Source: an uncultured Bacteroidales bacterium
GTDB lineage: Bacteria > Bacteroidota > Bacteroidia > Bacteroidales > Bacteroidaceae
Length of the DNA: 35,543 bases
Assembly: GCA_902770725.1 (NCBI GenBank)
Contig: CACXUA010000006.1
Span: 1-35,543 of the forward strand
Reading direction: 5' to 3'
Part shown: positions 3,801 through 31,682 of the stretch, piece after piece
How the letters are laid out: each line of letters starts with the position of its first letter
Position numbering within the stretch: the stretch's first letter is position 1
Notes under the pieces: model-generated
What the model was told of the DNA's origin: nothing
Databases searched by the model: none
The model's input: the letters and a program-made list of their open reading frames with translations, nothing else
Translations under genes and position numbers: made by a program

Positions 3801-3866
3801 TGCATGTACATGTATCTGCAATTGCACGTACATGTATATGCAATTGCACGTACATGTATCTGCAAC
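3801..3866. repeat. 22-base-period palindromic array A
   Basis: Two full 22-base units (3817-3838, 3839-3860) differ only in their last base. A shortened unit precedes them (3801-3816) and the start of another follows. Each full unit carries TGCAATTGCA (a perfect 10-base palindrome) and TACATGTA (a perfect 8-base palindrome). The array lies about 220-290 bases upstream of the BspA-like promoter. It shares the 22-base period, and loosely a GCACGT...TGCAA core, with the arrays at 13729, 17078 and 31595. Confidence 0.85.
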
Positions 3867-3922
3867 CAATCCCCTATGTCGATTTGGGTGCGTCGATGTG
3901 TTGTGCGGGGCTGTCATTGCAG

Positions 3923-3962
3923 CAAAAAAGATCCCCGCTGCCCCTTTGTGGGGCGACGGGGA
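3923..3962 (-). terminator. Intrinsic terminator after the GH85 gene
   Basis: TCCCCG...GCCCC (3932-3944) pairs with GGGGC...CGGGGA (3950-3962) around a 5-base loop. On the minus strand it is followed by TCTTTTTTGC. It lies 27 bases after the GH85 stop codon, closes the susC-susD-GH85 operon and separates it from the BspA-like gene. Confidence 0.85.
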
Positions 3963-3988
3963 CTTGTCGAGCCGGTAAAGAGCGATCT

Positions 3989-6900
3989 TTACTTCTTGGT
4001 TATCTTCTTCACAGATCCGTCGGCAAAACGGATAATGTTGATGCCTGGCTGGAGTTTGTTCAGTTTCTGGCCTCCAACGGAGTAGATGCCGACAATCTTG
4101 TTCGATACTGAAGCATCGGGACTGCCAATACCAACAGGGTCTATCGGGTTTTCATAACCCTTTCTAGTGACGCCCAAAATGGTTGGTATCTTACCCGATA
4201 CGGTCGATGTGAAGGTGATGCCCTTTGTCAGTTTGCTCCTGTCGGCAGAAAGTGTGTATTCGAAGATGCGGAAGCGCGTGCGTCCGTCGAACTGGTCGGC
4301 ACTGTAGCCAGAGCCGCTGCCGCGCTTGATGCGGTCGAGGCCGTAGATGGCTTCGCCCTGACCAGAACTGCCGCTATACCAGTCGCCTATTGAGAACTGC
4401 TGGGCAGGTTCCGATGTTCCGTCTTCGTAGTTCACTGCAGCCTTGAGCGTGGATGCACCTTCTGCCGAGATGACGATGAACTTAATCTCTTCACAGCAGG
4501 AAGGCTTGGAGAACTGGAGCATCTTGGGCGAGTTGGCGGTTTTGAGGACTAGGGCATTCTTAGCAGCGGGGTTGATGTTGTATTCCGTACCGCTGTTTGT
4601 TGTCAACTTGCCATCGACTACTTGCAGTGCACCGTTTGCTCTAACCTCTGGAGTAAAGAGGCACCAGCCTTGATTGTCGAGTGTAGCATCTGTGTAGTTC
4701 GTCACAGGCTTGTTTTCAGCAAGGACGTCGTCTGTCCAGTTGGAAATCTCGACGGATGCATTCACGGGAATCACGTCGTCGTACTGCTCGTAAGCCTCAA
4801 CCTCGGCCATAGAAGGATAGAAATAGGCATTTAGGGTAGAGACGATGGCGAGGTACTTCGTGTTCTTGTATTCTGGCAAGATGTATGTAAGTTCGGAGAT
4901 GCCGTCCAGATCGGTGAAGGTCTGGATGGTTTGCATCGATGTCAGGTCATTGCCTACGCAAATCTCGACAATCTTGGTAACTGTTCCCTCGTTGCCGTTG
5001 TCGTTCTCTCCGAAGTTGCCGTTCGGTAGGTAGATATTCACCTTAGCAATGTTCCAACCATCGGCTGTCGGAGCCTCGAAGATGGCCCAGAGGTCGCGCT
5101 TATGGGTGGAGAAGTCTTCTATCTCGAGGAGGCCTTCCTCCAACTTGTCGCCGTCGGTAAGCGTCTGCACATTGTAGGTATTGTATGCAGCTTCGTATGA
5201 GTAGTCGGCCTTGTAGTGGCGAACGGTTGCGGTCTTTCCGGCGAGGACATTCGGCTGGGTATCGGAATCGACGGTTACGGAGATGGTTCGCTCTTGATAA
5301 GCGCCGCCATTGTTGACCGTAACAGTAATAATGTCCTGACCATAGGCGAATCCGGCGTAAATGGGAATGTAGAAGGTCTGATCGCTAACGTTCTCTATGA
5401 TGTGGCCAATGCCGGTCTTGCCTGTCGAAGACCTAGCCGTGCACTCGAAGAGGTCCTCGCGCTTGTCGCCGCCAAGGTCATAATGAACCGTCACACCCTT
5501 GCTTGCGCCGGCCAATATCGTCAGTTCCTTCGGCTCTACGGTCATCGTGAGATTATTGTCTTCCTTGCCATAAACCTCGAACTCCCAAATGCGCAGGGTG
5601 CCGTTGACGTGCGGACGGAGGCGGACATAACGGGCTTTGACGGGAGCGATGTAGTCGCTCTTGATGGAAATCTTCTCGTTGCCAGGCGTGTTGTTATCGA
5701 CAACCGTCTGCCAGTTTACGCCGTCTTGCGAGAGTTCAATCGTGTAGCGGTCAATCTGGTCCACACCAGACTCTGGGCCTGCATTGCCGTCGTAGATGAC
5801 GAAGCCATAAATGCGATAGGCCCCCTCTGCATCGAAGACGACTTCATTGTCGGGAGAGATGTTACACCATTTCGAAGAGGTTGCAGAGGGATTCGTCACA
5901 CCATCGATGATCTTGCCAGGCACCTCGGTCGAATTCGTTGAGCCACTATAGCTGACGACCGTCTTTCCCTTGATGATATTGTAGACGGCGTTTCTTGCTG
6001 CTGCGTCGGCAAAGACGTCGAATGCCTCAGCTGTGTATTCCGTCGTGCCTACTTCGTTAGTGGCAGCAACGGTGAGGCTGATTTTACCTTCTTGATTTGC
6101 CTTAACAGTAACCGACTGATTCGTGAGGCCTCCTGATGCAAGTTCGACACCTTCAGGCAATGTCCATAGGTAGCTCGTTGGGTGGCCAGTGCAGTTCGCT
6201 GTCACGGTAACGGTTTCGCCCACCAGGACATAGCTCTTTGGAGAGACGGAATATGTTACCTTTGGAGCAGTGGGAGCGGGATAGTTCACTTGCAATTCGC
6301 TGGGAGCCTGTTGTACGCCATCCTTCATGACTGGCACGACAAGCACAGAAACATAACTATCAGAACCGTTACGATCGAAGTGCGGAATATAGAAACCCTC
6401 GTCGCGAGTCTGACCAACGAGTTTCTTTACGCCGTCCATTGTCTGCGTATAGATGTCGAAATGGTCGAAGTTGTTGTTCCAAGTGTACTTCCACGTGATG
6501 CGGATGTCGCCACTTTCCTCGCCTAAAGTGCTTGTCGTTGAAAGGTTCGTCACCTGAACAGGAGCAGGCGTGTAGTCCACGGGAAGCACAGCGACCTGAC
6601 CGATGTTCAGCGAATAGTTGCTCAGACTCGCTGAAGACCTGACGTTAAAGCCAATCATGTATATCGTATTGCCATTCAATGAGGAAAGGTCGAAGTCGCA
6701 AACAGTCCAGCCATTCACTTCGGTTGCTGTGCCTGTCAATGTTACATTAGGCGTAACAGAACTTTCCGTAGAAAGCTTGGCCTGCATCGTAACACGCCTC
6801 GATGACTTATACACCAAGCGCAAGACACCACCATTCACGACGGGAATCTGCGTCTTGTACAGGCGCATAACATGGTCGCCAGAGGAAAGTGTACCGGAAA

Positions 6901-8239
6901 TCTTAAAGCTTGAACCTACATTCCAAGCATTGTCCCAATCAATGGATACGGTCAGGCCTGAGCCGCGGTCAATCCACCAACGCCAAGTGGGGAGCACGCT
7001 TTGCATGCCCGAATGATACCAGTCTGCTGTTCCCTGAATCTCGCCTTTCACGAAGCGATGTTTGCCATTACCAACACCCATGTCGCTCACGAAGGGCATG
7101 GATGTGATGACAGAGCGTTCGAGCACACGGCTCGAAACACCTGGGAAGCCACTGGTGACAGCCTGGGAAGGGTCGGATTTGGTATTCACCCACATATCCT
7201 CTTCATTGTCGAAGACGGTCTTGGCAATGGGATAAGCTGTTTCGCCATGACAATCGCTTGCCGATTTGAAGGCACGCTTCGCAGGGTCTTCCCAAATCTT
7301 CGTCTCAGGACAGAAGAGGTCGAGCGAACCAACGTGACCTGTGGTGGGCATAGCACTGTTCAGGGCAGATGTCCATCCAAGGTGACCTGCTTGTGCCAGC
7401 TCGATGCCTGCGTATATCTTCGAGAACGTCTGGGCTTCCGTGCAGTTAAGTTGAGAAGCATAGCCGCGGTAGTCGCCTACAGCACCATACTCCAAGAACT
7501 GGGATGTGTTGACGTGCGTTTTAAGGATGCCTGTATTGGGAGAGCGTGAGGCATTGTACCACTGAATCTCCATCTGCGTGTTCGGGTCGTCGGCCATAGC
7601 AGCAGCATAGAAGTCGCGGCAGAATGCTTCCCATTCACTTTGCGAGCCGCCGCCAGTCTCCTCGTTGATGAACCAGCCGTCGAAGCCATAGTACTTAGCC
7701 ATCTCATACAGTTTCACAGCCATCGGATAGTGACCGCCTTCCTGAGCCAACATCTCACGAACCCAAGTCTGTGTGCCTCCAAAGGCAGCAGGGGGGAAGA
7801 AGATGTTGCCCAGCGACTTCACACCACTCTGGTGGGCTGCATCCGTGGAGCCTGCTGGCGGAATGTTGATGATGCCTTCCGATGCAGCACCAGCCCAATA
7901 GACCAACTTGTCCATGTATTGCCAATAGGTGGGTTGATAGCCCAGAAAGTTGCCTATCTCGCCTTGGGAAGGACAAAGAGAACAAGTAGGATACAGAATT
8001 GTAGAGTTACAAATCTGTCCTTCATAGTATTGGTTAGCGTTAGCTTTCATCAAGGTAGGCTCCTTGAAACGCGCCTGAAGAGGAACCTTTGCCACGTTGA
8101 AAGCATCGTCGGGATTAGAGCCGGGCGTCCAATTCTTGATGTCTTGTGGGTGGCAACATACGTTGAAAGGCTGTTGGCTAAAGCCCATCGTTGTCGTCAG
8201 CAGCAGTGCTGCCGAAAGAGAAAACTGTTTTAGATTCAT
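3989..8239 (-). CDS. GH85 endo-beta-N-acetylglucosaminidase, secreted, multi-domain
   Basis: Likely cleaves the GlcNAc-GlcNAc bond in the core of N-linked glycans, freeing the glycan from protein. Length is 1416 residues. Residues 1-21 are a signal peptide (ALLLTTTMGFSQ). The GH85 barrel spans about 30-420; GFDGWFINEET supplies the catalytic Asn192/Glu194 pair (the family's N-x-E), and Tyr228 in IQWYNAS matches the family's active-site tyrosine. Then come a jelly-roll domain (about 425-555), an Fn3-like domain (560-655), a PKD-like domain (660-745), an F5/8 type C domain (about 750-905), an Ig-like domain (905-1000), two more discoidin-like or carbohydrate-binding regions (about 1005-1370), and a tail resembling the others here (IYSVGGQKLNKLQPG). 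It starts 23 bases after susD and is the last gene of the operon. Family and catalytic pair are clear; the exact glycan specificity is not visible. Confidence 0.93.
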   Translation of the reverse strand: MNLKQFSLSAALLLTTTMGFSQQPFNVCCHPQDIKNWTPGSNPDDAFNVAKVPLQARFKEPTLMKANANQYYEGQICNSTILYPTCSLCPSQGEIGNFLGYQPTYWQYMDKLVYWAGAASEGIINIPPAGSTDAAHQSGVKSLGNIFFPPAAFGGTQTWVREMLAQEGGHYPMAVKLYEMAKYYGFDGWFINEETGGGSQSEWEAFCRDFYAAAMADDPNTQMEIQWYNASRSPNTGILKTHVNTSQFLEYGAVGDYRGYASQLNCTEAQTFSKIYAGIELAQAGHLGWTSALNSAMPTTGHVGSLDLFCPETKIWEDPAKRAFKSASDCHGETAYPIAKTVFDNEEDMWVNTKSDPSQAVTSGFPGVSSRVLERSVITSMPFVSDMGVGNGKHRFVKGEIQGTADWYHSGMQSVLPTWRWWIDRGSGLTVSIDWDNAWNVGSSFKISGTLSSGDHVMRLYKTQIPVVNGGVLRLVYKSSRRVTMQAKLSTESSVTPNVTLTGTATEVNGWTVCDFDLSSLNGNTIYMIGFNVRSSASLSNYSLNIGQVAVLPVDYTPAPVQVTNLSTTSTLGEESGDIRITWKYTWNNNFDHFDIYTQTMDGVKKLVGQTRDEGFYIPHFDRNGSDSYVSVLVVPVMKDGVQQAPSELQVNYPAPTAPKVTYSVSPKSYVLVGETVTVTANCTGHPTSYLWTLPEGVELASGGLTNQSVTVKANQEGKISLTVAATNEVGTTEYTAEAFDVFADAAARNAVYNIIKGKTVVSYSGSTNSTEVPGKIIDGVTNPSATSSKWCNISPDNEVVFDAEGAYRIYGFVIYDGNAGPESGVDQIDRYTIELSQDGVNWQTVVDNNTPGNEKISIKSDYIAPVKARYVRLRPHVNGTLRIWEFEVYGKEDNNLTMTVEPKELTILAGASKGVTVHYDLGGDKREDLFECTARSSTGKTGIGHIIENVSDQTFYIPIYAGFAYGQDIITVTVNNGGAYQERTISVTVDSDTQPNVLAGKTATVRHYKADYSYEAAYNTYNVQTLTDGDKLEEGLLEIEDFSTHKRDLWAIFEAPTADGWNIAKVNIYLPNGNFGENDNGNEGTVTKIVEICVGNDLTSMQTIQTFTDLDGISELTYILPEYKNTKYLAIVSTLNAYFYPSMAEVEAYEQYDDVIPVNASVEISNWTDDVLAENKPVTNYTDATLDNQGWCLFTPEVRANGALQVVDGKLTTNSGTEYNINPAAKNALVLKTANSPKMLQFSKPSCCEEIKFIVISAEGASTLKAAVNYEDGTSEPAQQFSIGDWYSGSSGQGEAIYGLDRIKRGSGSGYSADQFDGRTRFRIFEYTLSADRSKLTKGITFTSTVSGKIPTILGVTRKGYENPIDPVGIGSPDASVSNKIVGIYSVGGQKLNKLQPGINIIRFADGSVKKITKK

Positions 8240-8262
8240 AATATAAGTATTTAGAAGTATTG

Positions 8263-10132: not shown

Positions 10133-13100
10133 TCAGAATCCTAAGTTTAGAGTGAGTCCGTAGGTACGTGCATATGGCACAGAGAGGAAGTCGAGTGCCT
10201 GCGAGAACATCGTTGTGTCGTAGCCTCCTTCTGGGTTGCCGGGGGCATTCTTCATGAGGAAGCAGAGATTGCGGGCAACGAAAGAGAGTCGCAAGGAAGT
10301 GAGGGGAGTCTTCAGGAACAGTTTCTTCGGGAAGTCGTAGCCGATGGAAAGTTCCTTCAGCTTAATGTAGGAAGCGTCGTGCACGAACTCCTCGGCATAG
10401 CCTTGAGTGTTGGAATAGAGTCCGATTGTCTTGTAATAATCCACCGCATTGGGGAAGTCGCGGTCGAGTGTGCGCTCTGATGTTCCCACGAGCGTCGCCA
10501 TTCCTTCGGAGACGCTGACTATGTCGCCGCCTATCTTTGCGTCGATCAGGCCCGAGAGGATAATGCCGCGATAGTTGAAGGTGGGCATCAAAGACATCAA
10601 CAACTTAGGCTGAATGTTGCCGATAGGGTGGTCGAGGAGCCATTGTTCCTGATTGCCGCCGCCTGTTTCGGGCTGCGGAAGTCCGTTGGCATCGAGTATG
10701 GGATTGCCTGCCGCGTCGCGTTTCATGAGCTTATTGGCATAGATGTCGCCGAGTTTGCCGCCTGTTACGGCACCGACTTTGACGGGCATGTGTGAGTCGC
10801 CGGCAAAGTAGATGCGGTTCACGCCATCAGCCAACTCATCGACTTTGCTGACGTTGTGAGCGAGGTTCAGGTTGAGGTCGAAGGTGAAGTCCTTGGTCTT
10901 GACGGGTGTCGTATAGAGTGTGAACTCGATACCTCTATTGCTGATCTTGCCGGCGTTCACCCATTGCTGGCTCCACGGGGAAGAGGCATCGACCAGCATC
11001 GCCTGGTTCTTTGTGGTATTGTAATAGAATGTGAAGTCGAATCCGAGACGGTTCTGCAGGAACTTCATATCGAGTCCCACCTCGTAGGAGGTCTTGATCT
11101 CGGGCTTCAGGTTGTTGTTCATCTTGATGGTCTGCACGGCGGACTGGCGAACGCCGTTCGAGAAGCTGTACAACTGGGTGTTGTAGAGGTTGTAAGGCTC
11201 TGGGTCTTTACCGACTTGGGCCCACGAGAGGCGGACCTTCGAGAAAGTGACCCATTTGGGGAGCGGCTTGTCGATGGAGTTCATGAAGTCGGAGAAGATG
11301 TAGCTCAGCGAAGCCGACGGATAGAAGAACGAGCGGTTGCTCGAGGGAAGGGTGGACGACCAGTCGTTTCTCGCGGTGAGGTCGAGCGAGAGATATTCCC
11401 TGAAGGCCACCTGAGCGGAGGCAAAGATGGAGTACATCGCCCTGTCGCTGCCGGCGTCTGTCGCGCTGTTGAGTCGCTCGGCGGTATTGAAGAGCCAAGT
11501 GTCTTTGATGAGCATGTTTTGCACGGAAGCCCCGAGGAGTTCGTACTTCTGATACATGATGTTGCCGCCCAGGGTATAGCCGAAGCGCCAATTATCGTTG
11601 AGGGTATAGTCGCCGAGGAACATTGCGGAGATGTTGTGCTCGAAGTGATTCGTCTCGCCTCGGTACATGCCATCGTCGGTTAGCTTCGATTGCCAAGTGT
11701 CGTCGCCAGTAGTAATGGCTTGGAGGGCAAGGCTGAGGTTGGTCTCCTGAATGCGTGTGCGATAGTAGTCGAAAGCATATTTTGCCTGGAACTTCAGCCA
11801 GGGTTTGATGTCGAGGTTGCCTGCGAAGTATCCGAAGGCACGGAGCCTTTCGTCGCTGTTCTGCAGTTGATGGCGGATGTAGTAGGGGTTGAGGTAGTTC
11901 ATGTCAGGCCCGAACCAGTTCTGATGCGGGCGGAGTGGGGTGCTGTACTGTTCCAGGTCGCAGAGTCGAATGTTGGCCGGGATGAGGAGCAGCTGGCCGA
12001 CTTCGCCCCAGAGTCCTGTCTGCGGACGGTTCTCGGCCTTGGTTCTGGACAGAGATATCTTGCCGTCCACGCTGAACCATTTGTTTATCTTTTGTCCTGC
12101 ATTGAGGTCGATGTTTATCTTGTTCAGGCTTTCATCCTTGAACATGCCGCGGTTGTCGTTGTATCCGAAAGAGAGGCGGAAGTGAGACGTATCGGTCTGC
12201 TTGCCCAAAGCCACGGAGTGGTAGTGCGAGAAGCCTGTCTTGAAGTAGTCGGTCAGCTTGTTGCCGTAGGCTTTGTAGGGAATGGTCTGGCCGTTCCAGG
12301 TGACGTCGTCTCTGCCGTCGAGCAGGGGGCCGAAGGAGTTCTGACCAGTCATGCTGACGATTTTCCCATCGTCGTCGTAGAGATATTCCTTTTCGCCATT
12401 ATCGCCCTGACCGTATTTGTCCTGCAACTTGATGGTCTGAGCGGCCTGACTCCAAGTGAAGGTTCCGGAATAGCTGATGCCCCAGCCGTCTTTCTTCGCA
12501 CCCTTCTTCGTGGTGACAAGAATGACGCCATTACCGGCACGAGCGCCGTAGAGGGCTGCCGCATTAGGGCCTTTCAGTACGGAAATGCTTTCGATGTCGT
12601 CGGGATTGAGGTCGAAGACGGTTCCACCTCTATCGTAACCGCCGTAAGCAGTCACGTCGCTCGTCTGGTTGTCGGAGAAGGGAACGCCGTCCACAATCCA
12701 GAGGGGCTGGTTATTGTCTGTGAGTGAGGAGTTGCCGCGAATGGTTATCTTGGTCGAGCCGCCCAGTCCCGTCGGTGCGGTATTCATTTCGACACCGGCG
12801 ATTTTACCAGAGAGGGCTGAGGTGACGGAGGGGTCTCCCGTCAGGTTCAGCTGCTCGCTCTTGAGGTCCTGGACTGCATAGCCGAGCATCTTCTTCTCGC
12901 GTTTGATGCCGAGGGCTGTGACGACCACCTCTTCGAGCTGTGCCGTGTCTTCCGACATTTCCACATTGACCATTGACCACCCGCCATTGACCATCGAGTT
13001 TTGGCTGAGGGCTACTTCCTTTGTCTGGAATCCCATGTAGGAGAAGACCAGTACGGGAGCGTCCTCGCCGGTCATGATGGTGTAGTTTCCGTTGATGTCC

Positions 13101-13357
13101 GTGATGGCTTTCTCGCTGGTGCCTTTGACGGAGATGCTGGCTCCGATGAGCGGTTCGCCCTGCTCGTCGAGGAGTTGTCCGCTAATCTTTCTCTTCGGTT
13201 GCTGCGGTTCGTCGTTCTGCGTGACCTGCGAGGGCTCTTTCTCCCCTCTTTTTGTGGGGATGGAGTAGGCTGTTGCAGTAAGCGACAAGAGCAGCGCCGT
13301 CAACGCGAATCGAACGATGAGGCCGTTCAATCCTTGTGCTGTTCGTTTTTCTTCCAT
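10133..13357 (-). CDS. SusC/RagA-family TonB-dependent outer-membrane transporter
   Basis: Imports oligosaccharides captured by SusD, using TonB energy. Length is 1074 residues, normal for the family. Signal peptide about 1-31; a carboxypeptidase-like domain about 57-115 (ISGQLLDEQGEPLIGASISV); TonB box and family signature LEEVVVTALGI at 141-151; plug about 155-275 with LWIVDGVPF; then a 22-strand-type barrel ending in LTLNLGF. The ATG at 13357 follows an exact TTG-N(19)... promoter by about 30 bases. Odd: residues 121-132 (SMVNGGWSMVNV) are encoded by a run of 7-base repeats and look like an insertion between the N-terminal domain and the TonB box. It leads the operon with susD and the GH85 gene; no hybrid two-component regulator or ECF sigma/anti-sigma pair is next to it. 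Confidence 0.95.
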   Translation of the reverse strand: MEEKRTAQGLNGLIVRFALTALLLSLTATAYSIPTKRGEKEPSQVTQNDEPQQPKRKISGQLLDEQGEPLIGASISVKGTSEKAITDINGNYTIMTGEDAPVLVFSYMGFQTKEVALSQNSMVNGGWSMVNVEMSEDTAQLEEVVVTALGIKREKKMLGYAVQDLKSEQLNLTGDPSVTSALSGKIAGVEMNTAPTGLGGSTKITIRGNSSLTDNNQPLWIVDGVPFSDNQTSDVTAYGGYDRGGTVFDLNPDDIESISVLKGPNAAALYGARAGNGVILVTTKKGAKKDGWGISYSGTFTWSQAAQTIKLQDKYGQGDNGEKEYLYDDDGKIVSMTGQNSFGPLLDGRDDVTWNGQTIPYKAYGNKLTDYFKTGFSHYHSVALGKQTDTSHFRLSFGYNDNRGMFKDESLNKINIDLNAGQKINKWFSVDGKISLSRTKAENRPQTGLWGEVGQLLLIPANIRLCDLEQYSTPLRPHQNWFGPDMNYLNPYYIRHQLQNSDERLRAFGYFAGNLDIKPWLKFQAKYAFDYYRTRIQETNLSLALQAITTGDDTWQSKLTDDGMYRGETNHFEHNISAMFLGDYTLNDNWRFGYTLGGNIMYQKYELLGASVQNMLIKDTWLFNTAERLNSATDAGSDRAMYSIFASAQVAFREYLSLDLTARNDWSSTLPSSNRSFFYPSASLSYIFSDFMNSIDKPLPKWVTFSKVRLSWAQVGKDPEPYNLYNTQLYSFSNGVRQSAVQTIKMNNNLKPEIKTSYEVGLDMKFLQNRLGFDFTFYYNTTKNQAMLVDASSPWSQQWVNAGKISNRGIEFTLYTTPVKTKDFTFDLNLNLAHNVSKVDELADGVNRIYFAGDSHMPVKVGAVTGGKLGDIYANKLMKRDAAGNPILDANGLPQPETGGGNQEQWLLDHPIGNIQPKLLMSLMPTFNYRGIILSGLIDAKIGGDIVSVSEGMATLVGTSERTLDRDFPNAVDYYKTIGLYSNTQGYAEEFVHDASYIKLKELSIGYDFPKKLFLKTPLTSLRLSFVARNLCFLMKNAPGNPEGGYDTTMFSQALDFLSVPYARTYGLTLNLGF
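12964..12998. repeat. Heptamer tandem repeat inside susC
   Basis: Five 7-base units in phase: CATTGAC, CATTGAC, CACCCGC, CATTGAC, CATCGAG. On the coding strand they read as GTCAATG-type units. They encode residues about 120-132 of the SusC-like protein, just before the TonB box. Confidence 0.9.
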
Positions 13358-13418: not shown

Positions 13419-13728
13419 GCGATATTGTATTTCTTTTGCCCTAAAGTGGGAAAAGCGGAAAAAGAACGGCATTTCCGAGTGCGTGCGGCTTTTGATAAAA
13501 TGTAAGCGAAAGTGGCATGTTCGCTTACTTTCTGTATTTTCCGAATGCTCGAAAAACGGCATCGGAACAGCAGAACTGTGTCTGACCCCAAATTTATCGC
13601 AATTTTCTCGAATTTTGTAACACGTTGAGGTTGTGAGATTTAAGTTTTGTGTGCTTAGACACGGGCAGCAAAATGACCCGATTCCGAGTAAAAAAGTGGC
13701 TTTTTCGACCTGTTTTGTGGGTCGATTC

Positions 13729-13794
13729 GGCACGTTGTCTTTGCAAACGCGGCTCGTTAAGTTTGCAAACGTGGCACGTTAAGTTTGCAAACAT
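13729..13794. repeat. 22-base-period palindromic array B
   Basis: Three contiguous 22-base units (13729-13750, 13751-13772, 13773-13794). Each opens with GGC(A/T)CGTT and contains TTTGCAAAC; in units 2 and 3 this is part of the perfect palindrome GTTTGCAAAC. The consensus is shared with the arrays at 17078 and 31595. Confidence 0.9.
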
Positions 13795-13960: not shown

Positions 13961-13996
13961 TTTAATTTTTCACCTTTAATTTTTCATTTTTAATTA
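13961..13996. repeat. 14-base A/T-rich tandem repeat
   Basis: TTTAATTTTTCACC (13961-13974) is followed directly by TTTAATTTTTCATT (13975-13988) and then TTTAATTA. The period is 14, twice the 7-base step seen elsewhere in the window. It ends eight bases before the tRNA promoter box. Confidence 0.85.
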
Positions 13997-14052: not shown

Positions 14053-14124
14053 GCTCCTGTAGTTCAACGGATAGAATAGAAGTTTCCTAAACTTTAGATA
14101 GGGGTTCGATTCCCCTCGGGAGTA
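14053..14124 (+). tRNA. tRNA-Arg, anticodon CCT
   Basis: A full cloverleaf can be drawn. Acceptor GCTCCTG (14053-14059) with CGGGAGT (14117-14123); D stem GTTC/GAAT; anticodon stem GAAGT/ACTTT around the loop TTCCTAA (14084-14090), anticodon CCT at 14086-14088; T stem AGGGG/CCCCT around TTCGATT. The anticodon reads AGG. The first acceptor pair would be G-U, slightly unusual. CCA is not encoded. It sits 40 bases after a TAnnTTTG box and 90 bases before korA. Confidence 0.9.
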
Positions 14125-14134
14125 CTACTTCGGG

Positions 14135-17074: not shown

Positions 17075-17110
17075 CGAGGCACGCCTAGTTTGCGAATTAG
17101 GCGTGCCTCG
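17075..17110 (+). terminator. Hairpin 1 between korB and the outer-membrane protein gene
   Basis: CGAGGCACGCCTA (17075-17087) pairs perfectly with TAGGCGTGCCTCG (17098-17110): a 13-base-pair stem with a 10-base loop. It is made from the first two units of repeat array C. No T-run follows, so it may be a transcript-end stabiliser or a pause hairpin rather than a complete terminator. Confidence 0.6.
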
Positions 17111-17165
17111 TTGATGAATTAGGCATGTCTAGTTTGCGAACTAGGCGTGCCTAATTTCTTTATGA
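17078..17165. repeat. 22-base-period palindromic array C
   Basis: Four contiguous 22-base units start at 17078, 17100, 17122 and 17144. Their heads alternate GGCACGCC, GGCGTGCC, GGCATGTC, GGCGTGCC; the first two are reverse complements of each other, so neighbouring units fold into hairpins. Units 1 and 3 carry TAGTTTGCGAA. The array fills the gap between the convergent genes korB and the outer-membrane protein gene. Confidence 0.92.
17119..17154 (+). terminator. Hairpin 2 between korB and the outer-membrane protein gene
   Basis: TTAGGCATGTCTAGTT (17119-17134) pairs with AACTAGGCGTGCCTAA (17139-17154) around a TGCG tetraloop: 16 base pairs, two of them G-U when read on the plus strand. TTTCTTT follows. 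On the minus strand the two G-U pairs would be A-C mismatches, so the hairpin suits the korB transcript better. Confidence 0.65.
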
Positions 17166-20087: not shown

Positions 20088-20174
20088 ACTTAATAAGACG
20101 CCCGAAACGACGAAAAGTTTAATCCGAGAAGAAAAATAATGTTAACCTTTCAAATACATGCAGTTACATCGTCA

Positions 20175-20262
20175 GTCCCACCACAGTAGGACTGTCGTCC
20201 CACCATGGGAGGACTCCAGTCCCACCGTGGGAGGACTCGAGTCCTCCTATAGGAAAATTTTA
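20175..20262. repeat. 22-base-period palindromic array D
   Basis: Four contiguous 22-base units start at 20175, 20197, 20219 and 20241. The first three open with GTCCCACC and contain (A/G)GGAC; CCATGG or CCGTGG forms the unit centre. Unit boundaries form GAGGACTCGAGTCCTC, a perfect 16-base palindrome (20231-20246). A further stem AGTCCTCCTA (20240-20249) / TAGGAGGACT (20261-20270) reaches into the next unit. The base sequence differs from arrays A, B, C and E but the period is the same. It lies between the 5' end of the outer-membrane protein gene and the 3' end of the GH43 gene, both on the minus strand. Confidence 0.88.
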
Positions 20263-20285: not shown

Positions 20286-21353
20286 TCAAAACTGCGGACG
20301 ATTGACAATCCAGCACGGGTGGCTGGTCGGGTTGCCCTTATGATCGACGAAAGTAAGCTTGCCGTCTATGTCCTTCAGCTCCATCAAAATCATCGGACGA
20401 GGACGGTAATCGCCTCGACGAGGAATGAGGCCTTCGCAATGGGAATGCATGATCATGAACATGCGGCCAGCCCGATCCGTAATGATTTCCCCGTTGTGAC
20501 CGGCTCCGTTCAGTATCGCGTCGGGGCTTTCGGAAGTGAGAACGGGCTCGGGCTCTGTCCAGCCAGAGAAGAGATTGCTGGATGTGCTCAGGCACAAGGT
20601 GTACTCATAATTGTTGAAATGGTTTTTGGAGCAGTAGAAATAGTACAGTCCCTTATATTTATAAATGTATCCTCCCTCGTAAGCCGTCGTGATGTAATGG
20701 GGCTTGCTGCCTTTCGCGTAGGTCAGTCCGTCCTTCGAAAGTTCGCGGATAAAGTTGCCCTTGCTGTTCACGTCGCCATAGACGAGATACTGTTTGCCGT
20801 CGTCGTCGAGGAAGTATTGCCCGTCTTGCGGGGTCGGATGTTCAGGTGTGCCGACGTTCAAGGTGTTTGCATAGCGGAAGGGACTGTCGATGTCGTCAGC
20901 CACGAGGACAACTTGGCGGTCGTTTTCCATTGAGACAAAGAGGGTGAGATACACGACGAGTTTGCCCTCGATGAGTGCTGGAGAAGGTGCCCAGAAGTTG
21001 ATGTTCTGCTTGCCAGCCCCAGTCTTCATGGGGTCGAGCTTGCCGTCGCCAAACGGATCATGCGGGTTTGGGCCAGGGAACATATCGCGATAGTAGGTCC
21101 AGTTGCACAGGTCCTGACTGCGATAAATCTTGATAGGGAAGCCCGTCTTGAAGCAGTAGAACCATTCTCCGACCTGCACTATCGATGGATCTGGGCAGTC
21201 GAAATCGGTCACGGGATTCATCGCGACGGTCTTGTCGGGCATTTCTTTTCTGAGTTCAAACAAGGTCTTGTCGGCGATTTGACGCTCTGTCTGAGCCTTT
21301 GCGGCCAGGCTCCCCAAACAAAAGAGAAGCAGGAAAAGTGAGATTCGGTTCAT
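20286..21353 (-). CDS. GH43-family glycoside hydrolase, secreted
   Basis: Five-bladed beta-propeller enzyme; the family includes arabinanases, arabinofuranosidases and xylosidases. Length is 355 residues, a single-domain size. The signal peptide ends AAKAQ (about residue 21). Likely catalytic residues: base Asp55 in CPDPSIV, pKa-tuning Asp177 in QDGQYF before LDDDGKQYLVYGD, acid Glu226 in TAYEGGYIY. FWAPSP (about 120) is a usual GH43 motif. It has its own promoter (21389-21396). It is not next to a susC/D pair. The substrate cannot be assigned from sequence alone; the family is fairly certain. Confidence 0.88.
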   Translation of the reverse strand: MNRISLFLLLFCLGSLAAKAQTERQIADKTLFELRKEMPDKTVAMNPVTDFDCPDPSIVQVGEWFYCFKTGFPIKIYRSQDLCNWTYYRDMFPGPNPHDPFGDGKLDPMKTGAGKQNINFWAPSPALIEGKLVVYLTLFVSMENDRQVVLVADDIDSPFRYANTLNVGTPEHPTPQDGQYFLDDDGKQYLVYGDVNSKGNFIRELSKDGLTYAKGSKPHYITTAYEGGYIYKYKGLYYFYCSKNHFNNYEYTLCLSTSSNLFSGWTEPEPVLTSESPDAILNGAGHNGEIITDRAGRMFMIMHSHCEGLIPRRGDYRPRPMILMELKDIDGKLTFVDHKGNPTSHPCWIVNRPQF

Positions 21354-25225: not shown

Positions 25226-25405
25226 ATGGCACATCCAAAAAGAAGACAGTCCAAGACCAGGACTCTCAAAAGAAGAACTCACGACAAGGCAGTAGCTCCC
25301 GCATTGGCAGTATGTCCTAACTGCGGCGAGTTCCACATCTATCACACCGTTTGCCCTGCTTGCGGTTACTATCGCGGCAAGGTGGCCATCGAGAAAGAGG
25401 CTTAA
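25226..25405 (+). CDS. rpmF: 50S ribosomal protein L32
   Basis: A 59-residue protein beginning MAHPKRRQSKTRTLKRR. The zinc-ribbon cysteines are CPNC (Cys30, Cys33) and CPAC (Cys43, Cys46). This is the C+ form of L32. It lies between yceD and fabH, the usual place in Bacteroidetes. Confidence 0.97.
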   Translation: MAHPKRRQSKTRTLKRRTHDKAVAPALAVCPNCGEFHIYHTVCPACGYYRGKVAIEKEA

Positions 25406-25408
25406 AGA

Positions 25409-26494: not shown

Positions 26495-27368
26495 GTCTGG
26501 CTTTGTTAATATCGTAGGCAACCCGAATGTCGGGAAGTCAACGCTCATGAACCTTTTGGTTGGTGAGCGCATTTCTATTGCTACCTTCAAGGCACAGACC
26601 ACTCGACATCGCATCATGGGCATCCTCAATACGCCCGAGATGCAGATATGTTTCAGCGACACCCCAGGCGTCTTGAAGCCCAACTACAAGTTGCAAGAGC
26701 AGATGCTTCAGTTCAGCGAGAGTGCCTTGCAGGATGCCGACGTCTTGCTCTACGTCACCGATATGGTGGAGACGCCCGACAAGAACAGCGATTTCCTCGA
26801 TAAAGTCAAGAAGCAGAAGGCACCCATCCTTGTGCTCATCAACAAGATAGACCTTAGCGACCAGAAGGCTCTGACCGAGAAGGTCGAGCTTTGGCACGAG
26901 GCATTGCCCGAGGCAGAGATTATCCCCATCAGCGCATTGCACAAGTTCAATATTGATAACGTGCTGAAGCGCATACAGGAACTCCTGCCCGAGTCGCCCG
27001 CCTATTTCGACAAAGACCAGTGGACCGACAAACCTGCTCGCTTCTTCGTCACCGAAATCATCCGCGAAAAGATACTCCTCTATTATGATAAGGAAATACC
27101 TTATAGTGTGGAAGTTGTAGTCGAACAGTTCAAGGAGACGGACCGGAACATCCGCATCAGCGCGGTTATCTTCGTGGAAAGGGAGTCGCAGAAGGGCATC
27201 ATCATCGGTCATCAAGGCGTCGCCTTGAAGCGCGTCTCGACCGAGGCACGCAAGAGCCTGGAGAAGTTCTTCGGCAAGAGCATCTTCCTCGAGGTCTTCG
27301 TCAAGGTCGATAAAGACTGGCGACAGAGCGACAGAGCCATGAAGGCATACGGATATAATTTGGACTGA
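26487..27368 (+). CDS. era: GTPase Era
   Basis: Ribosome-assembly GTPase that binds the 3' end of 16S rRNA. Length is 293 residues. GNPNVGKST (11-19) is the P-loop, DTPG (58-61) is G3, NKID (119-122) is G4 and ISAL is G5. The KH RNA-binding domain is at about 200-285, with GIIIGHQGVALKRV. Its ATG overlaps the end of fabH by eight bases. A run of seven 7-base repeats starts at its last stop-codon base and runs to the purN start. Confidence 0.97.
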   Translation: MFKSGFVNIVGNPNVGKSTLMNLLVGERISIATFKAQTTRHRIMGILNTPEMQICFSDTPGVLKPNYKLQEQMLQFSESALQDADVLLYVTDMVETPDKNSDFLDKVKKQKAPILVLINKIDLSDQKALTEKVELWHEALPEAEIIPISALHKFNIDNVLKRIQELLPESPAYFDKDQWTDKPARFFVTEIIREKILLYYDKEIPYSVEVVVEQFKETDRNIRISAVIFVERESQKGIIIGHQGVALKRVSTEARKSLEKFFGKSIFLEVFVKVDKDWRQSDRAMKAYGYNLD

Positions 27369-27416
27369 CAACAGACAATAGACAACAGACAACGAACAAC
27401 AGACAACGGACAAATG
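27368..27416. repeat. Seven perfect-phase heptamers filling the era-purN gap
   Basis: ACAACAG, ACAATAG, ACAACAG, ACAACGA, ACAACAG, ACAACGG, ACAAATG. The first base is the last base of the era stop codon and the last three are the purN ATG. There is no other sequence between the two genes, so purN must be translated from this array. The same unit, reverse-complemented, encodes the signal peptide core of the M60-like gene at 28232-28259. Confidence 0.95.
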
Positions 27417-27989
27417 ACAAGCATCGCTATTTTCGTGTCCGGCAGCGGCACCAATTGTGAGAACCTGATACGCCATTTCGAGCATTCCGACGCGGTGAAA
27501 TGTGCGTTGGTCGTCAGCAACAAGCCCGACGCCTATGCCTTGGTGCGAGCTGAGCGACTGGGCGTACCCACGGCTGTCATCACGAAAGCACAGCTTGCCA
27601 ATCCCGATGAGACGCTGCCCTTACTCGAGAGCTACGGCATCGAGTTCATCGTGCTGGCAGGCTTCCTGCCGCTCATTCCAGCCTACCTCATCGAGGCCTT
27701 CCTCCGCAAGATAATAAACCTGCATCCAGCCCTGCTGCCCAAATTTGGCGGGAAGGGTATGTGGGGACACCATGTCCACGAAGCCGTTAAGGCTGCCGGC
27801 GAGACCGAGACAGGCATGACAGTTCATTACGTTACCCCCGTTTGCGACTCGGGCGAGATTATTGCACAGTTCCGCACAAGCCTCTCCCCTTCTGATAGCG
27901 TCGATGACATAGCAGAGAAAGAACATCAACTGGAGATGGAACACTTCCCCAAGGTCGTCGAAAAGGTAATCTCCGAATTGGAGAAATAG
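27414..27989 (+). CDS. purN: Phosphoribosylglycinamide formyltransferase
   Basis: Third step of purine synthesis: formyl transfer from 10-formyl-tetrahydrofolate to GAR. Length is 191 residues. SGSGTN (9-14) binds phosphate. The catalytic Asn102, His104 (INLHPALLPKFGGKG) and Asp145 (PVCDSGEI) are all present. It follows era by 45 bases of heptamer repeats and is closed by a terminator at 28011-28035. In many Bacteroidetes der (engA) follows era; here it is purN. Confidence 0.95.
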   Translation: MTSIAIFVSGSGTNCENLIRHFEHSDAVKCALVVSNKPDAYALVRAERLGVPTAVITKAQLANPDETLPLLESYGIEFIVLAGFLPLIPAYLIEAFLRKIINLHPALLPKFGGKGMWGHHVHEAVKAAGETETGMTVHYVTPVCDSGEIIAQFRTSLSPSDSVDDIAEKEHQLEMEHFPKVVEKVISELEK

Positions 27990-28010
27990 AGAAAAGAAGC
28001 AGAATAATAG

Positions 28011-28035
28011 AAGGAGCCGTTGAGGCTCCTTTTTT
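28011..28035 (+). terminator. Intrinsic terminator after purN
   Basis: AAGGAGCC (28011-28018) pairs with GGCTCCTT (28024-28031) around a 5-base loop, followed by TTTT. It closes the yceD-rpmF-fabH-era-purN run 22 bases after the purN stop codon. Confidence 0.92.
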
Positions 28036-28133
28036 GTGAATAAAGTCCCAGCACTCTTTTGCCTGAAGAGGCGGTGACCTGAGCCCTTGCGGCATTCATT
28101 CTTCCTTTTCCCGTTATTTTTGCCTCTTTCTCT

Positions 28134-28163
28134 TGCAGGGTTCATTAGAAAAAAGTAAATTTG
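28134..28163 (+). promoter_or_regulatory. Promoter of the first M60-like peptidase gene
   Basis: TTG (28134-28136), exactly 19 bases, TAAATTTG (28156-28163), then a 29-base A-rich leader to the ATG at 28193. A complete match to the Bacteroidetes consensus. Confidence 0.85.
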
Positions 28164-28192
28164 CGTGCGAGAAACTATAAACTAACACAAAT

Positions 28193-31100
28193 ATGAATCA
28201 GAAAATCTACACAAAATGCCTTAGACTACTGTTGTCTGTGGTCTGTTGTCTGTTGTCTGCCAACCTCTGGGCTGTGACGGAAATCAACGTCGAGACGGCC
28301 GGTACGCTGTCCTCCTTGCTTACGAGCACCGATAAGGAGCTGAAGGTGACGGGTGTCATCAATGGGTCGGACATTAAGTACATGCGTCAGCTCGTTGTGG
28401 CTGGTACGGTGACGAAGCTCGACTGGTCGGGCGTTCGCATCGTGGCTGGCGGCGAAGCCTATACAGGAAGCTTCGTGGCGAAAGCCGACGAGATAGGCGA
28501 GCAGATGTTCTACGAATGCTCGAAACTCGAATCGATCGTGCTGCCCCAAGGCATCACAGCTATCCAGACCAATGCGTTCGCCAGAACGGGACTGAAAGCC
28601 ATCGACATCCCCAGCACGGTCAGGGTGCTTGGCGGCGATGCCTTCGCCTATTGCAGCGCGCTGGAGACGGTCGTCATCGGGCGTAAGGTAAGCCAGCTTT
28701 ACCAAGGCGTCTTCTATAGTTCCAACGTCAAGACAGCCTACGTGAAGCCTGCCACGCCTCCCAGCACGCCAGCGTACCTCTTCTCTTCGAGCCCGAAGAT
28801 TTATGTCTATAGCGAATCTTTAGCCGATTACAGGACGTCCAGTTGGAAGGACTATGGCACCATCTACGGCGGTTTGGAGAATACCTATCCAGTGGAACTT
28901 GACCCCAACGACGTTGCCAAGATGCTGTGCGGCGACTTCTTCGAGGATGCTGCCTGCACCCAGCTGAAGGCCGAATACCAGGCGATGAGCGACGAGGAAC
29001 TGACGGCAGCCCTCACTGCTGTCGGCATGCCTGATTTTATGGTCAGCATTGCCATCAAGATTAAGAACCAGGCGTGGGCAAGCTATGAGCAGGACTTCCG
29101 CATCCACGACTACAAGCCCTATAGCGACGCCAACTACTGGAACGACAAGATGATGAGCAGCGGCGGCTCCTATATGGGCAACCCGACAGGCATCTATGCC
29201 CAGAACGATGGCGACGAAATCTATGTCTTCGTAGATGATGATGTGCCGAGCGATGCAACGCTCTACTTCGCTGGCTGTGTGGAGAACCAGCTCGTAACGA
29301 ATGCCAAGACGGGAATCAAACTGACGAAAGGCCTCAATATCATCGACGGCACGAAGAATGCCCTCTACTATGTTGTCTATGTGGCCGACACGAAGAGCAT
29401 GACCAAGACCCTCAGCGAGTGGCCCGACATCAAGATACATATCGAGGGCGGCAAGGTGAATGGCTACTACGACATCAGCCGTCATAGCGATGCCGAGTAC
29501 AAAGCCCTCCGCAATGCTTCGACGCTCGGTCGCTTCACTGTTCGCGGAGAACATTCCCTCATTCACCTCAAGACAGCTTCTTTCAAGACCGTCTTCCCCA
29601 ACACTGTTGACAAGAGTATCTGCTGGTACGATAGCGTCGCTGTGTGGGAGAAGGATTTGATGGGCATGACGGAGGCTGTGGCTACTGGAAAGAAGGCGGG
29701 CTACCCGTGGTATCTGACGGGTGGCGAAGCGATCTATCCCCTCTATTACAACAACCCGAATTTCGCAATTGAAGGCGAACCTGAAGATGCCGGCTATGCC
29801 AACTCGAGCGGCTACCGCGTGTCGTACAACGGCATCGACTGCATCAAGAACTGCCTCAATGCTCTGAACCCCAACATGGACGACTGGTGCGCAGGTCATG
29901 AATGCGGCCATAACAACCAGAGAGCTATCAACGTGGAAGGTTGCACCGAGGCGTCGAACAATGTCTTCTCGAACCTCGTTCGCTACCTTGATGGTCTCAA
30001 TGCATCGGGCGGCTCGACGTTGGCTACCGTCATGGACGAATATGCGCGTCGCGTGCCGTTCTATTTTAGAGACGTGAACAGTAGGCTTCGCATGTACTGG
30101 AACTTCTATCTCTATTATCACCTTGGGCAGAAGAACACATCCTTCTATCCGGAACTCTTCAAGGCGCTTCGCAAAGACCCATTGGTTCTGTATAATAGCA
30201 GCAACAACAATAACGGAGGCTTGAAGTTCGTGCGCAAGGTTTGCGAAGTGGCTCAGGAGGACCTGACCGATTTCTTCGATATCTGGGGTTTCTTCGAACC
30301 CATTAAGGTTGGTTCCAAGATTGAGGACTACGGCGTACATCCTATTGCCGTGACAAAGACCAACATTAATGCCACGAAGGCCAACATCGCAAAATACGAG
30401 AAGAAGAACCGCGAGATTATCTTCGTTGAAGACCGTGCCGACTTTGTCCCCTCGACAGGTTTCCTCACGCCGGTAGGTCAGCAGAGGAATGGTTCTAACC
30501 AAGTCGGTCAATGTGGCGAGTTGGGGCAGTTCTGGGATTATTGGGCAGAGAATTACCAGCCATCGGAATATGGATATCTGTGGGCTGATAGTCTCTATGC
30601 TTTCGAGGGCAGCGGAGGCTTGGGCTTCCTTATGCTTGATGCCGACGACAATGTTAAGTTTGCCGCCAATGCCAAGAATATTTGCATCCCGACGAACGTG
30701 GGAAGACCAGAGAAGGACTTTACGATTTATTCTCTTGATTCTGATGGTGCCCTGCACGAGGTTACGAAGATAGGCGGTGCTACTGAACTCGTCAATGTTC
30801 CGCTTGCAGGAAGACTGGAAACAACGCTGACGAACAATAAGGTTATCAAACTTGTTGTCACCGGAAAGATTAACGGAAAGGACATCAAGTACATGCGTCA
30901 GCTCATCAACGAGGGCAACCTCCTGAACATTGACCTTACGGATGCCAGGGTTGTTGCGGGTGGCGGATACTATTACCAGACCTATGGAACCTCCACGAAC
31001 AATATGGGTAACTATTGCTTCCACGACTTCAAGAAGCCCATCTCCATCAAATTGCCCGAAACGATTACCACAATTGGTTCGAATGCTTTCTCTGGGTCTA

Positions 31101-31573
31101 GTATCAAGAAGATAATAATCCCCGATAAGGTTACTTCGATTGGTGGCGATGCCTTTGCTTACTGCAATCATTTGGATGTTGTGCTTATCGGTAAGGGCGT
31201 CAGGACGATGGACCAAGGTGTGTTCTATAGCACATCCGCCAAGGAAGTCTATATCAAGGCGACCACACCGCCAAATCTGACGGGCGTTACAGATTATCTG
31301 TTCTCTGGAAAGGATCGCCTCATCCATGTTTACGAGAGTTCCCTCACCGCTTACAAAAACAAAGGTTGGGACAAATACGGCACCCTCGTGGGCGACCTTA
31401 CAGATGATATGGCTGATGGCATAGAGGCTATTGAAGCAGACCAAGACGTGAACGATGCTCAAACCTCTGTGTTCAGAGATGCTACCTACGACCTGATGGG
31501 CCGCAGAGTAAGTGAACTGAAGCCGGGCACCATTTATATCAGGAACGGCAAAAAGTTCATGATGACGAAGTAA
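28193..31573 (+). CDS. Secreted M60-like metallopeptidase between two BspA-type LRR blocks (copy 1)
   Basis: Length is 1126 residues. Signal peptide about 1-27 (ends ANLWA). First BspA-type LRR block at about 30-225 (IGEQMFYECSKLESI..., GGDAFAYCSALETVVIG). M60-like region at about 245-840 with the zinc motif HECGH (569-573) and the downstream Glu586 in GCTEASNN, fitting HExxH-X(8-28)-E. Second LRR block at about 890-1085, clearly homologous to the first: both contain DIKYMRQL, GGDAFAYC, DQGVFYS/YQGVFYS and end KYGT/DYGT...GDL/GGL. The tail DLMGRRVSELKPG...GKK matches others in the window. M60-like enzymes include mucin and glycoprotein peptidases; that is the likely role, with the LRR blocks perhaps for binding. 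It has its own promoter; a paralogue follows. Confidence 0.9.
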   Translation: MNQKIYTKCLRLLLSVVCCLLSANLWAVTEINVETAGTLSSLLTSTDKELKVTGVINGSDIKYMRQLVVAGTVTKLDWSGVRIVAGGEAYTGSFVAKADEIGEQMFYECSKLESIVLPQGITAIQTNAFARTGLKAIDIPSTVRVLGGDAFAYCSALETVVIGRKVSQLYQGVFYSSNVKTAYVKPATPPSTPAYLFSSSPKIYVYSESLADYRTSSWKDYGTIYGGLENTYPVELDPNDVAKMLCGDFFEDAACTQLKAEYQAMSDEELTAALTAVGMPDFMVSIAIKIKNQAWASYEQDFRIHDYKPYSDANYWNDKMMSSGGSYMGNPTGIYAQNDGDEIYVFVDDDVPSDATLYFAGCVENQLVTNAKTGIKLTKGLNIIDGTKNALYYVVYVADTKSMTKTLSEWPDIKIHIEGGKVNGYYDISRHSDAEYKALRNASTLGRFTVRGEHSLIHLKTASFKTVFPNTVDKSICWYDSVAVWEKDLMGMTEAVATGKKAGYPWYLTGGEAIYPLYYNNPNFAIEGEPEDAGYANSSGYRVSYNGIDCIKNCLNALNPNMDDWCAGHECGHNNQRAINVEGCTEASNNVFSNLVRYLDGLNASGGSTLATVMDEYARRVPFYFRDVNSRLRMYWNFYLYYHLGQKNTSFYPELFKALRKDPLVLYNSSNNNNGGLKFVRKVCEVAQEDLTDFFDIWGFFEPIKVGSKIEDYGVHPIAVTKTNINATKANIAKYEKKNREIIFVEDRADFVPSTGFLTPVGQQRNGSNQVGQCGELGQFWDYWAENYQPSEYGYLWADSLYAFEGSGGLGFLMLDADDNVKFAANAKNICIPTNVGRPEKDFTIYSLDSDGALHEVTKIGGATELVNVPLAGRLETTLTNNKVIKLVVTGKINGKDIKYMRQLINEGNLLNIDLTDARVVAGGGYYYQTYGTSTNNMGNYCFHDFKKPISIKLPETITTIGSNAFSGSSIKKIIIPDKVTSIGGDAFAYCNHLDVVLIGKGVRTMDQGVFYSTSAKEVYIKATTPPNLTGVTDYLFSGKDRLIHVYESSLTAYKNKGWDKYGTLVGDLTDDMADGIEAIEADQDVNDAQTSVFRDATYDLMGRRVSELKPGTIYIRNGKKFMMTK
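28232..28259. repeat. Heptamer repeat encoding the signal peptide core of the M60-like protein
   Basis: Four in-phase units: TTGTCTG, TGGTCTG, TTGTCTG, TTGTCTG. They encode residues 14-22 (LSVVCCLLS), the hydrophobic core of the signal peptide. The unit is the reverse complement of the era-purN repeat (CAGACAA). Confidence 0.92.
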
Positions 31574-31594
31574 ACGAGTGACGTTTGGAAACGA

Positions 31595-31682
31595 GGCACG
31601 CCAAGTTGCTCAACTTGACGTGCCATCTTTACCAATTCGACGTGCCATGTTTGCCAACGCGGCAGGCCGCGTTTTCAAGTTA
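31595..31682. repeat. 22-base-period palindromic array E
   Basis: Four contiguous 22-base steps start at 31595, 31617, 31639 and 31661. Heads are GGCACGCC, GACGTGCC, GACGTGCC and GGCAGGCC; the middles are AGTTGCTCAA, TCTTTACCAA, TGTTTGCCAA and CGTTTTCAAG. The second and third units are the closest pair. GGCACGcCAAGTTG (31595-31608) folds on CAACTTGaCGTGCC (31611-31624) with one mismatch. It lies between the two M60-like genes. Confidence 0.85.
31656..31675 (+). terminator. Likely terminator between the two M60-like genes
   Basis: AACGCGG (31656-31662) pairs with CCGCGTT (31667-31673) around CAGG, and the stem runs into TTTT. It is the last part of array E and lies 82 bases after the first M60-like stop. 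No TAnnTTTG box is visible between it and the second gene (17 bases), so the second gene may depend on read-through. Confidence 0.6.

Follow-up and report, generated by a model that had tools for sequence, protein, structure and literature searches.

Five arrays in the window

The window analysed here comprises 35,543 nucleotides of contig CACXUA010000006.1 from an uncultured Bacteroidales bacterium (assembly GCA_902770725.1), and this report deals with five arrays in its intergenic gaps, named A to E, in which units of 22 base pairs (bp) follow each other without spacers (Table 1). The contig is part of a metagenome-assembled genome (MAG), here called G000, which has 2,256,434 bases on 134 contigs and is 80.6% complete. 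The eight window proteins that were scanned look ordinary, namely LRR, GH85, SusD-like, TonB receptor, thiamine pyrophosphate (TPP) enzyme, outer-membrane barrel, GH43 and M60+LRR. Named records similar to one of the window proteins are mostly MAGs from ruminants or other guts, labelled Bacteroidaceae, Bacteroidales or Prevotellaceae.

The original prediction, made from the window alone, had claimed that all five arrays step in 22 bases without spacers and that B, C and E share one consensus, with A and D keeping the period in different sequence. Both statements hold. Tandem Repeats Finder (TRF) reported period 22 with 0% indels at 3800-3865, 13728-13792, 17083-17157 and 20173-20244, and a lag scan agreed on all four. 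Array E lies below the thresholds of both methods; it fits a 22-column profile of sequence class 1 in register over four units, and was itself among the 46 arrays given to the profile fit. The class assignments place B, C and E together in class 1 (consensus GGCACGTTAAGTTTGCCAACTT) and A and D in other classes. A CRISPR reading does not apply, since the units follow each other at exactly 22 bases with no unique spacers between them.

Table 1. Position, composition and surroundings of the five window arrays
Array	Position	Units	Surroundings	Detected by
A	3800..3865	three class-4 22-bp units (TTGCACGTACATGTATCTGCAA), CATG-centred	123 bp past stop codon of GH85 gene 3989-8239	TRF (period 22, 3.0 copies)
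B	13728..13792	three class-1 22-bp units	divergent gap; TonB-receptor (SusC-like) gene 10133-13357, minus; tRNA-Arg 14053-14125 and open reading frame at 14215, plus	TRF and class-1 profile
C	17077..17157	about 3.5 class-1 units, A-rich on the left, T-rich on the right	convergent gap; TPP-enzyme gene 16066-17058; outer-membrane barrel gene 17172-20087	TRF and class-1 profile
D	20173..20244	about 3.3 units of a GTCC..GGAC class	between barrel gene 17172-20087 and GH43 gene 20286-21353	TRF
E	31595..31682	four degenerate class-1 units	directly after stop of M60/LRR gene 28193-31573	profile fit

A period of 22 bases across the sampled genus members

A search for 22-base autocorrelation over the genome had been proposed as a check of the predicted common period, and the period was indeed found genome-wide, far above shuffled sequence. 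The first lag scan of G000 covered 426,222 bases in 20 stretches, 17 of them picked at known class-1 matches, and gave 45 segments at lag 22, 27 at lag 44 and 6 at lag 66, with none at lags 20, 21, 23 and 24. One shuffle of these 426,222 bases in 50-base blocks left no segment at lag 22 and none at lags 20 to 24. Twenty further stretches, five of them picked in the same way, contributed 39 segments at lag 22 and 2 at lag 24. Over the resulting 821,250 bases, 84 segments fell at lag 22, none at 20, 21 and 23 and 2 at 24, which corresponds to approximately 10 per 100 kb; scaled up from this sampled density, the whole assembly would hold roughly 230 such segments. The sister species of G000, represented by a MAG about 89% complete (G005), showed the same peak, with 45 segments at lag 22 versus 1, 2, 0 and 0 at lags 20, 21, 23 and 24.

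At least one lag-22 array was present in each of the 10 other genus members sampled at 45 to 80 kb each, often with other sequences. The stretches of G005, G008, G012, G013 and G024 were partly picked at class-1 matches, those of the other five members were not. Class 1 was recognised by eye in G005, G008, G012 and G024, whereas G003, G011, G013, G016, G017 and G021 carry other sequences. Outside the genus, 10 genomes from other families of the order held no lag-22 arrays in 230,741 bases (2,427 of them apparently N). A DNA search with array B matched at least seven of 41 genomes, all of them, among the matches listed, within the genus. In the korB surroundings of named relatives (650,988 bases) the preference for 22 is weak, since 5 segments at this lag stand against 2 at lag 21, 2 at lag 23 and 4 at lag 24. 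A few arrays of 21- or 23-bp step were met in G013 (L047:9533, L048:12413, L049:11421), G017 (L068:14968) and G021 (L072:17917), which are possibly lineages with a shifted step.

Sequence classes and unit anatomy

Greedy grouping of 129 consensus units from G000 and G005 resulted in 20 groups, down to singletons. Class 1 includes 74 arrays, followed by class 2 (CCCTATAGGG, 15 arrays), class 3 (TTAAATATTCATGAA, 7 arrays) and class 4 (TTGCACGTACATG, 6 arrays); two of the smaller groups (AGGCATGCC.. and TTCGACGTGCC..) look like class-1 variants. In the class-1 profile (34 of the 46 arrays, E included), CACG and TT-four-AA are highly informative, with less information in between. Judged from its letters, the class-1 unit can be read as 8 + 3 + 8 + 3 = 22, its two dyad centres being separated by 11 bp, and the class-4 unit reads as TGCAATTGCA + 3 + ACATGT + 3. 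Two dyad-symmetric blocks per 22-bp module with centres 11 bp apart are common to classes 1, 3 and 4, and class 2 has one clear dyad plus a variable 3-nt stretch. Paired changes at three positions distinguish the units of classes 3 and 4.

The claim that the arrays are rich in dyad symmetry stands only in part. Full-unit dyad symmetry beat shuffles (p ≤ 0.05) in 29 of 84 G000 consensus units, but 16 of 59 control-period arrays did so as well. With only these 29 significant it was rejected as an invariant of the arrays, and the raised controls make the test little informative.

The number of units appears to be limited. At lag 22, 87 arrays in G000, 49 in G005 and 33 in nine other genus members exceed 2.35 copies, whereas near-exact two-copy repeats were rare (5, 0 and 3, respectively), a count that is biased because diverged two-copy arrays score below visibility. 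Three units were found in all seven class-3 arrays and in all four class-4 arrays of G000, and G005 has one class-4 array with three and one with four; a few isolated units of both classes are also present. With the class-1 profile at its lowest threshold, 74 one-unit, 25 two-unit, 50 three-unit and 40 four-unit runs were counted, although broken arrays account for some of the one-unit runs and a symmetric unit may be counted once per strand.

Some class-3 arrays deserve mention for their surroundings or their identity. Those at L010:18600, L019:10939 and L023:11899 are bordered by class-1-like half units (e.g. AGTTG, CGAAC) and look as though they had been inserted at the centre of a class-1 dyad. 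Identical class-3 units occur at two loci, L264:19831 and L268:1148, an identity of letters that points to recent copying.

Comparison with the sister species and other relatives

The original prediction had named the absence of a 22-base period elsewhere in the genome, or of arrays at the same loci in close relatives, as observations that would speak against it; the period is there, and so are arrays at shared loci. In G005, array C persists, D persists with altered letters, and B and E are replaced by another 22-bp class. The available part of G005 contains the positions of 15 of the 46 G000 arrays, window array A not among them, and at 13 of these loci an array is kept as judged by eye. An automatic table at threshold 17 over the 65 gaps that could be mapped (of 357) showed arrays in both species in 9 gaps, in G000 only in 5, in G005 only in 5 and in neither in 46. 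The array at L027:6110 has no counterpart in G005. Another one, at L026:16803-16881 with a nearby inverted AAACCTCCC..GGGAGGTTT, is missing from G005 together with approximately 143 nt of its surroundings.

Four loci (B, E, L011:16312 and L013:4421) have class 1 in G000 and class 2 in G005. The exchange at B happened in place, as CCCTATAGGG-type units occupy the same position in the same register in G005. Identity between the species is 31 of 65 positions at shift 0 and 28 at shifts of +22 and -22, compared with a mean of 16.2 at other shifts. For array D it amounts to 40 of 70 positions in register versus a mean of 17.1 elsewhere; this register test was run on loci B and D only. The arms of D read GTCC..GGAC in G000 and GTAC..GTAC in G005, with 30 substitutions over the 70 positions and no indel, and the distance from the stop codon to a conserved anchor is 138 bases in G000, G005 and G052. 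At the locus of E, G005 has four CCCTATAGGG-type units instead, and the gap is longer by 44 bases. Class 3 in G000 lies opposite class 4 in G005 at L279:593-874, and at L012:1774 cores of GGCACGCC lie opposite GACGCGTC with the adjoining letters kept, both judged by eye. The position of array D in G124 (L236, downstream of the GH43 gene) is taken by yet another 22-base class, GTGTGACGTTTGCAATTTACTA, which was seen once in G000 (L022:18777).

Array C is located at korB, and its length is kept among further relatives as well: 85 bases separate the anchors in G000, G005, G087 and RGIG4467, whereas G124 has 41, a difference of exactly two units. Among 110 korB loci, inspected over 700 bases downstream although a few of them stop at the gene end, a lag-22 class-1 array was found at the window locus and L096 only, with other lag-22 repeats at L107, L142 and L174. 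Diverged or shorter versions of array C at L097, L099 and L125 were read by eye and then measured. In G052 (L100), CACGTG-centred units stand in the corresponding gap downstream of korB.

The lengths of the gaps carry the same signature, with gain and loss of whole modules. In 19 array gaps, 15 length differences between the two species deviate by at most one base from a multiple of 22; six of them are zero, so that 9 of 13 non-zero differences follow the step, and the four others are -144, -6, -2 and +108. The 46 array-free gaps, by comparison, include 30 without any length difference, and only 2 of the 16 non-zero ones come equally close to a non-zero multiple of 22. Small indels are few in the aligned arrays, in a small sample from which class-swapped loci were omitted as they align poorly: there are none at C, D and L012:10958, a single one of 22 or 44 bases at L012:14960, L021 and L022:16017, two summing to 22 at L019 and one of 23 at L012:145, compared with 46 indels per 452 substitutions in ordinary gaps. 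The suggestion that a common period with divergent sequence reflects conserved spacing is hence well supported by the lag spectra, the gap lengths and the in-register class change.

Position, strand and folding

Gene positions in G000 were taken from a simple home-made gene caller (coding fraction 0.88), which placed 74 of 83 merged arrays in gaps and only 3 inside genes. Between tandem genes, the array is closer to the upstream stop than to the next start in 36 of 45 cases in G000 and 22 of 25 in G005; the median distances in G000 are 39 bases to the stop and 160 to the start, compared with 97 and 92 for random placement. Array density per kb in G000 is 1.08 in convergent, 0.96 and 0.99 in tandem and 0.57 in divergent gaps, the latter holding 15 of the 74 placed arrays. 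The gradient is steeper in G005, with 2.38, 0.91 and 0.77, and 0.34, respectively (11, 25 and 4 arrays).

Regarding the question whether the element acts as DNA or as RNA, several results agree. Among the 70 oriented class-1 arrays of both species, the 46 in tandem pairs are split into 24 sense and 22 antisense relative to the upstream gene. An RNA helix under selection is expected to favour G-U pairs. Mismatches across class-1 dyads, counted on the sense strand, are 154 G-T and 173 A-C, i.e. no G-U excess. T counts beside the arrays are not raised downstream of stops (5.60 per 20, versus 6.00 per 20 on the side facing a gene). The lack of polarity and of a G-U excess in class 1, and of a directional difference in T, speaks for the DNA level. 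As for folding, the class-1 consensus does not outperform its dinucleotide shuffles (p=0.55), and 8 of 29 classes reach p ≤ 0.05, as do 5 of 21 controls, four of which come from the same genus and have a step of 21 or 23 bp. The proposal that the ability to fold is what is kept thus does not apply generally, neither by this measure nor by the dyad test. The related proposal of transcript-end structures fits array C, which has an A-tract/hairpin/T-tract layout in a convergent gap and paired changes between orthologs by eye; over all arrays, however, the ends show no enrichment of T-tracts, and class 1 has no strand bias. Individual loci, array C for instance, may still act as terminators. A search of the window at Rfam gathering thresholds found one tRNA only.

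Interpretation and alternatives

We favour the view that the arrays represent DNA-level rows of dyad-symmetric sites, spaced by two helical turns behind genes and turning over by concerted evolution, and assign it a probability of about 0.4. The fixed 22-bp step fits this view, as do the paired dyads with their 11-bp offset, the columns under constraint, the restricted unit number and the absence of a preferred strand. Mostly three to six contiguous 22-bp modules form an array; a dimeric, DNA-bending or architectural protein, or a small set of such proteins with different specificities, would bind one module after the next from the same side of the helix at intervals of two turns. The bound arrays could mark or insulate gene ends, and new variants might spread among loci via ectopic conversion or copying, such that the letters change fast and the step remains fixed. 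The earlier idea that a nucleoid protein might bind the arrays agrees with all this and has become the leading reading, although the protein is one that we infer. A more general version, i.e. a genus-wide element set by length, with free letters in two-turn modules that are held at gene ends by an architectural protein of relaxed specificity, seems somewhat unlikely.

The constrained columns were found in 36 orthologous class-1 units from 14 loci of G000 and G005, in which the eight high-information columns had 11 substitutions in 288 positions versus 54 in 504 for the other columns (p=0.0004), i.e. they change approximately one third as often. Choosing the units in G005 instead gave the same outcome (12 of 288 versus 58 of 504). 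Several points, however, weigh against rows of protein-binding sites. The slow columns make up only part of the blocks, and the profile that defines them overlaps in part with the arrays tested. The 3-nt stretches read as linkers are no faster than the blocks, with 19 of 228 and 50 of 608 substitutions, both approximately 8% (one locus is included twice). Arrays of the same class as a whole differ by 33 of 504 positions (approximately 6.5%, seven loci), equal to the 452 of 7,185 (6.3%) in ordinary gaps. The covariation check proposed for the arrays gave, in class 1, one clear pair of columns (21 and 8), two weak ones and nothing in the remaining pairs. GC phasing, measured as S/W power at 11 bp, is significant (p ≤ 0.05) in 1 of 29 class consensus units. 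Furthermore, some classes have little dyad symmetry, isolated single class-1 units are common even if some of the 74 runs are pieces of broken arrays, the position bias could be explained by exclusion from promoters alone, and the many classes would demand relaxed or multiple specificity of a binding protein that is itself inferred.

Weak overall constraint together with rapid class turnover makes a selfish or neutral minisatellite a serious rival, and we regard this main alternative as a real possibility, if short of an even chance. A length-measuring process would duplicate and homogenise 22-bp stretches, which survive outside promoters and genes. The ordinary substitution rate of the arrays and of their 3-nt stretches agrees with it, as do the frequent changes in unit number between the sister species, the turnover of classes, some of which were met once, and a density that falls from convergent over tandem to divergent gaps as expected from promoter avoidance. 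On the other side, near-exact two-copy repeats are rare and arrays of three or more units common (diverged pairs would be missed in this count), and three units in every class-3 array, the slower high-information columns and the in-register class change at B likewise speak against a minisatellite. We also know of no process that measures 22 bp. One hairpin per unit in the 3' ends of transcripts, acting as terminators or stabilisers of mRNA, would explain why arrays sit behind stop codons, and array C, the eight classes that fold better than shuffles and the paired changes between classes 3 and 4 point in the same direction; but the class-1 data on orientation, mismatches and folding, the T counts, the Rfam result and the arrays in divergent gaps all speak against it, and RNA hairpins are an unlikely general explanation.

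Even less probable, in our view, are elements resembling miniature inverted-repeat transposable elements (MITEs) that are made of transposase-binding repeats. They could be BrickBuilt-like or related to 22-bp end repeats such as those of Tn7 and Mu, and the dispersed families, the two loci with identical class-3 units and the array that is absent together with its surroundings in the sister species would suit such an origin. On the other hand, neither a Y1 transposase (PF01797) in G000 nor rve (PF00665) in G000 and G005 was found, with the completeness of the two MAGs at approximately 81 and 89%, and only few arrays have inverted repeats within 40 bases. End arrays of DDE transposons (Tn7/Mu/IS21-like) were rejected as a candidate on the same rve result; rve matched in 2 of 6 genomes searched. 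Terminal inverted repeats, searched for in 40 bases on each side, reached a score of at least 10 in 3 of 83 flanking pairs, compared with approximately 1.2 expected (1.5% of random pairs). A few cases are striking (L026:16803, L011:16312), but outer inverted repeats were rejected as a general feature.

Relation to known intergenic repeats

Several known repeat families share properties with the arrays; they are described here from excerpts of the cited papers. REP/BIME elements are short intergenic palindromes of many copies, clustered and rapidly changing between relatives (PMC3733652). The arrays resemble them as short dyad-symmetric intergenic repeats in many copies, mostly behind genes, clustered and with quick turnover, and the intergenic, mostly downstream placement of REP/BIME is found here as well (3 of 83 genic, 36 of 45 closer to the stop). 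Unlike REP/BIME, they have no fixed family sequence, and their units repeat every 22 bp exactly with nothing in between. The earlier suggestion of a REP-like mobile family is therefore right with regard to dispersal and turnover, but its hallmarks were not found: by eye, the class consensus units show no constant GTAG or CGTC tag, and the Y1 (RAYT) transposase PF01797 had 0 matches in the 80.6% complete G000, with matches in 5 of 14 controls. We read the arrays as BIME-like in position, without fixed sequence. BIME-2 elements of E. coli are gyrase sites with GC content phased at about 10.75 bp (PMC6379681). A gyrase-phasing reading was rejected, as GC phase at 11 bp appeared in one of the 29 classes only.

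Within the Bacteroidales, the BrickBuilt MITE of Porphyromonas gingivalis consists of 23-nt tandem repeats with leader, tail and terminal inverted repeats, and tandem repeats of 41, 23 and 22 nt are mentioned as described earlier for strain W83 (PMC4596501). Both consist of intergenic tandem repeats without spacers whose units are similar in length; BrickBuilt, however, is one sequence family, whereas here many unrelated sequences share the step of 22 and flanking inverted repeats are the exception (no search for a common leader or tail was made). PINSR of Prevotella intermedia/nigrescens is likewise intergenic and specific to its lineage, two strains holding 177 and 184 copies, but it is a single 188-bp repeat, for which the excerpt describes no 22-bp step (PMC4755523). 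Further literature on known relatives includes PMC5771137, cited likewise from an excerpt. No description of arrays such as those reported here was recognised in the literature searched, which covered few subscription papers or preprints.

Usual families of intergenic repeats are recognised by their sequence; here, length is the conserved quantity. If the more general version of our interpretation, an element set by length, is true, the arrays would represent a spacing code for gene boundaries without counterpart in the literature searched. Either a protein reads two-turn spacing largely irrespective of the letters, or copying proceeds in 22-bp steps, and both would apparently be new and testable. 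Homology searches catch such elements class by class, whereas a lag scan detects them directly, and others may hide elsewhere. The in-place switches of class between species offer a natural experiment in concerted evolution.

The other common period in G000 is 7, with 23 segments in 426 kb, and it is present in 7 of 10 sampled genus members. In the window, seven-base tandem repeats lie at 13961-13995, 27367-27420, 28229-28259 and 34917-34948.

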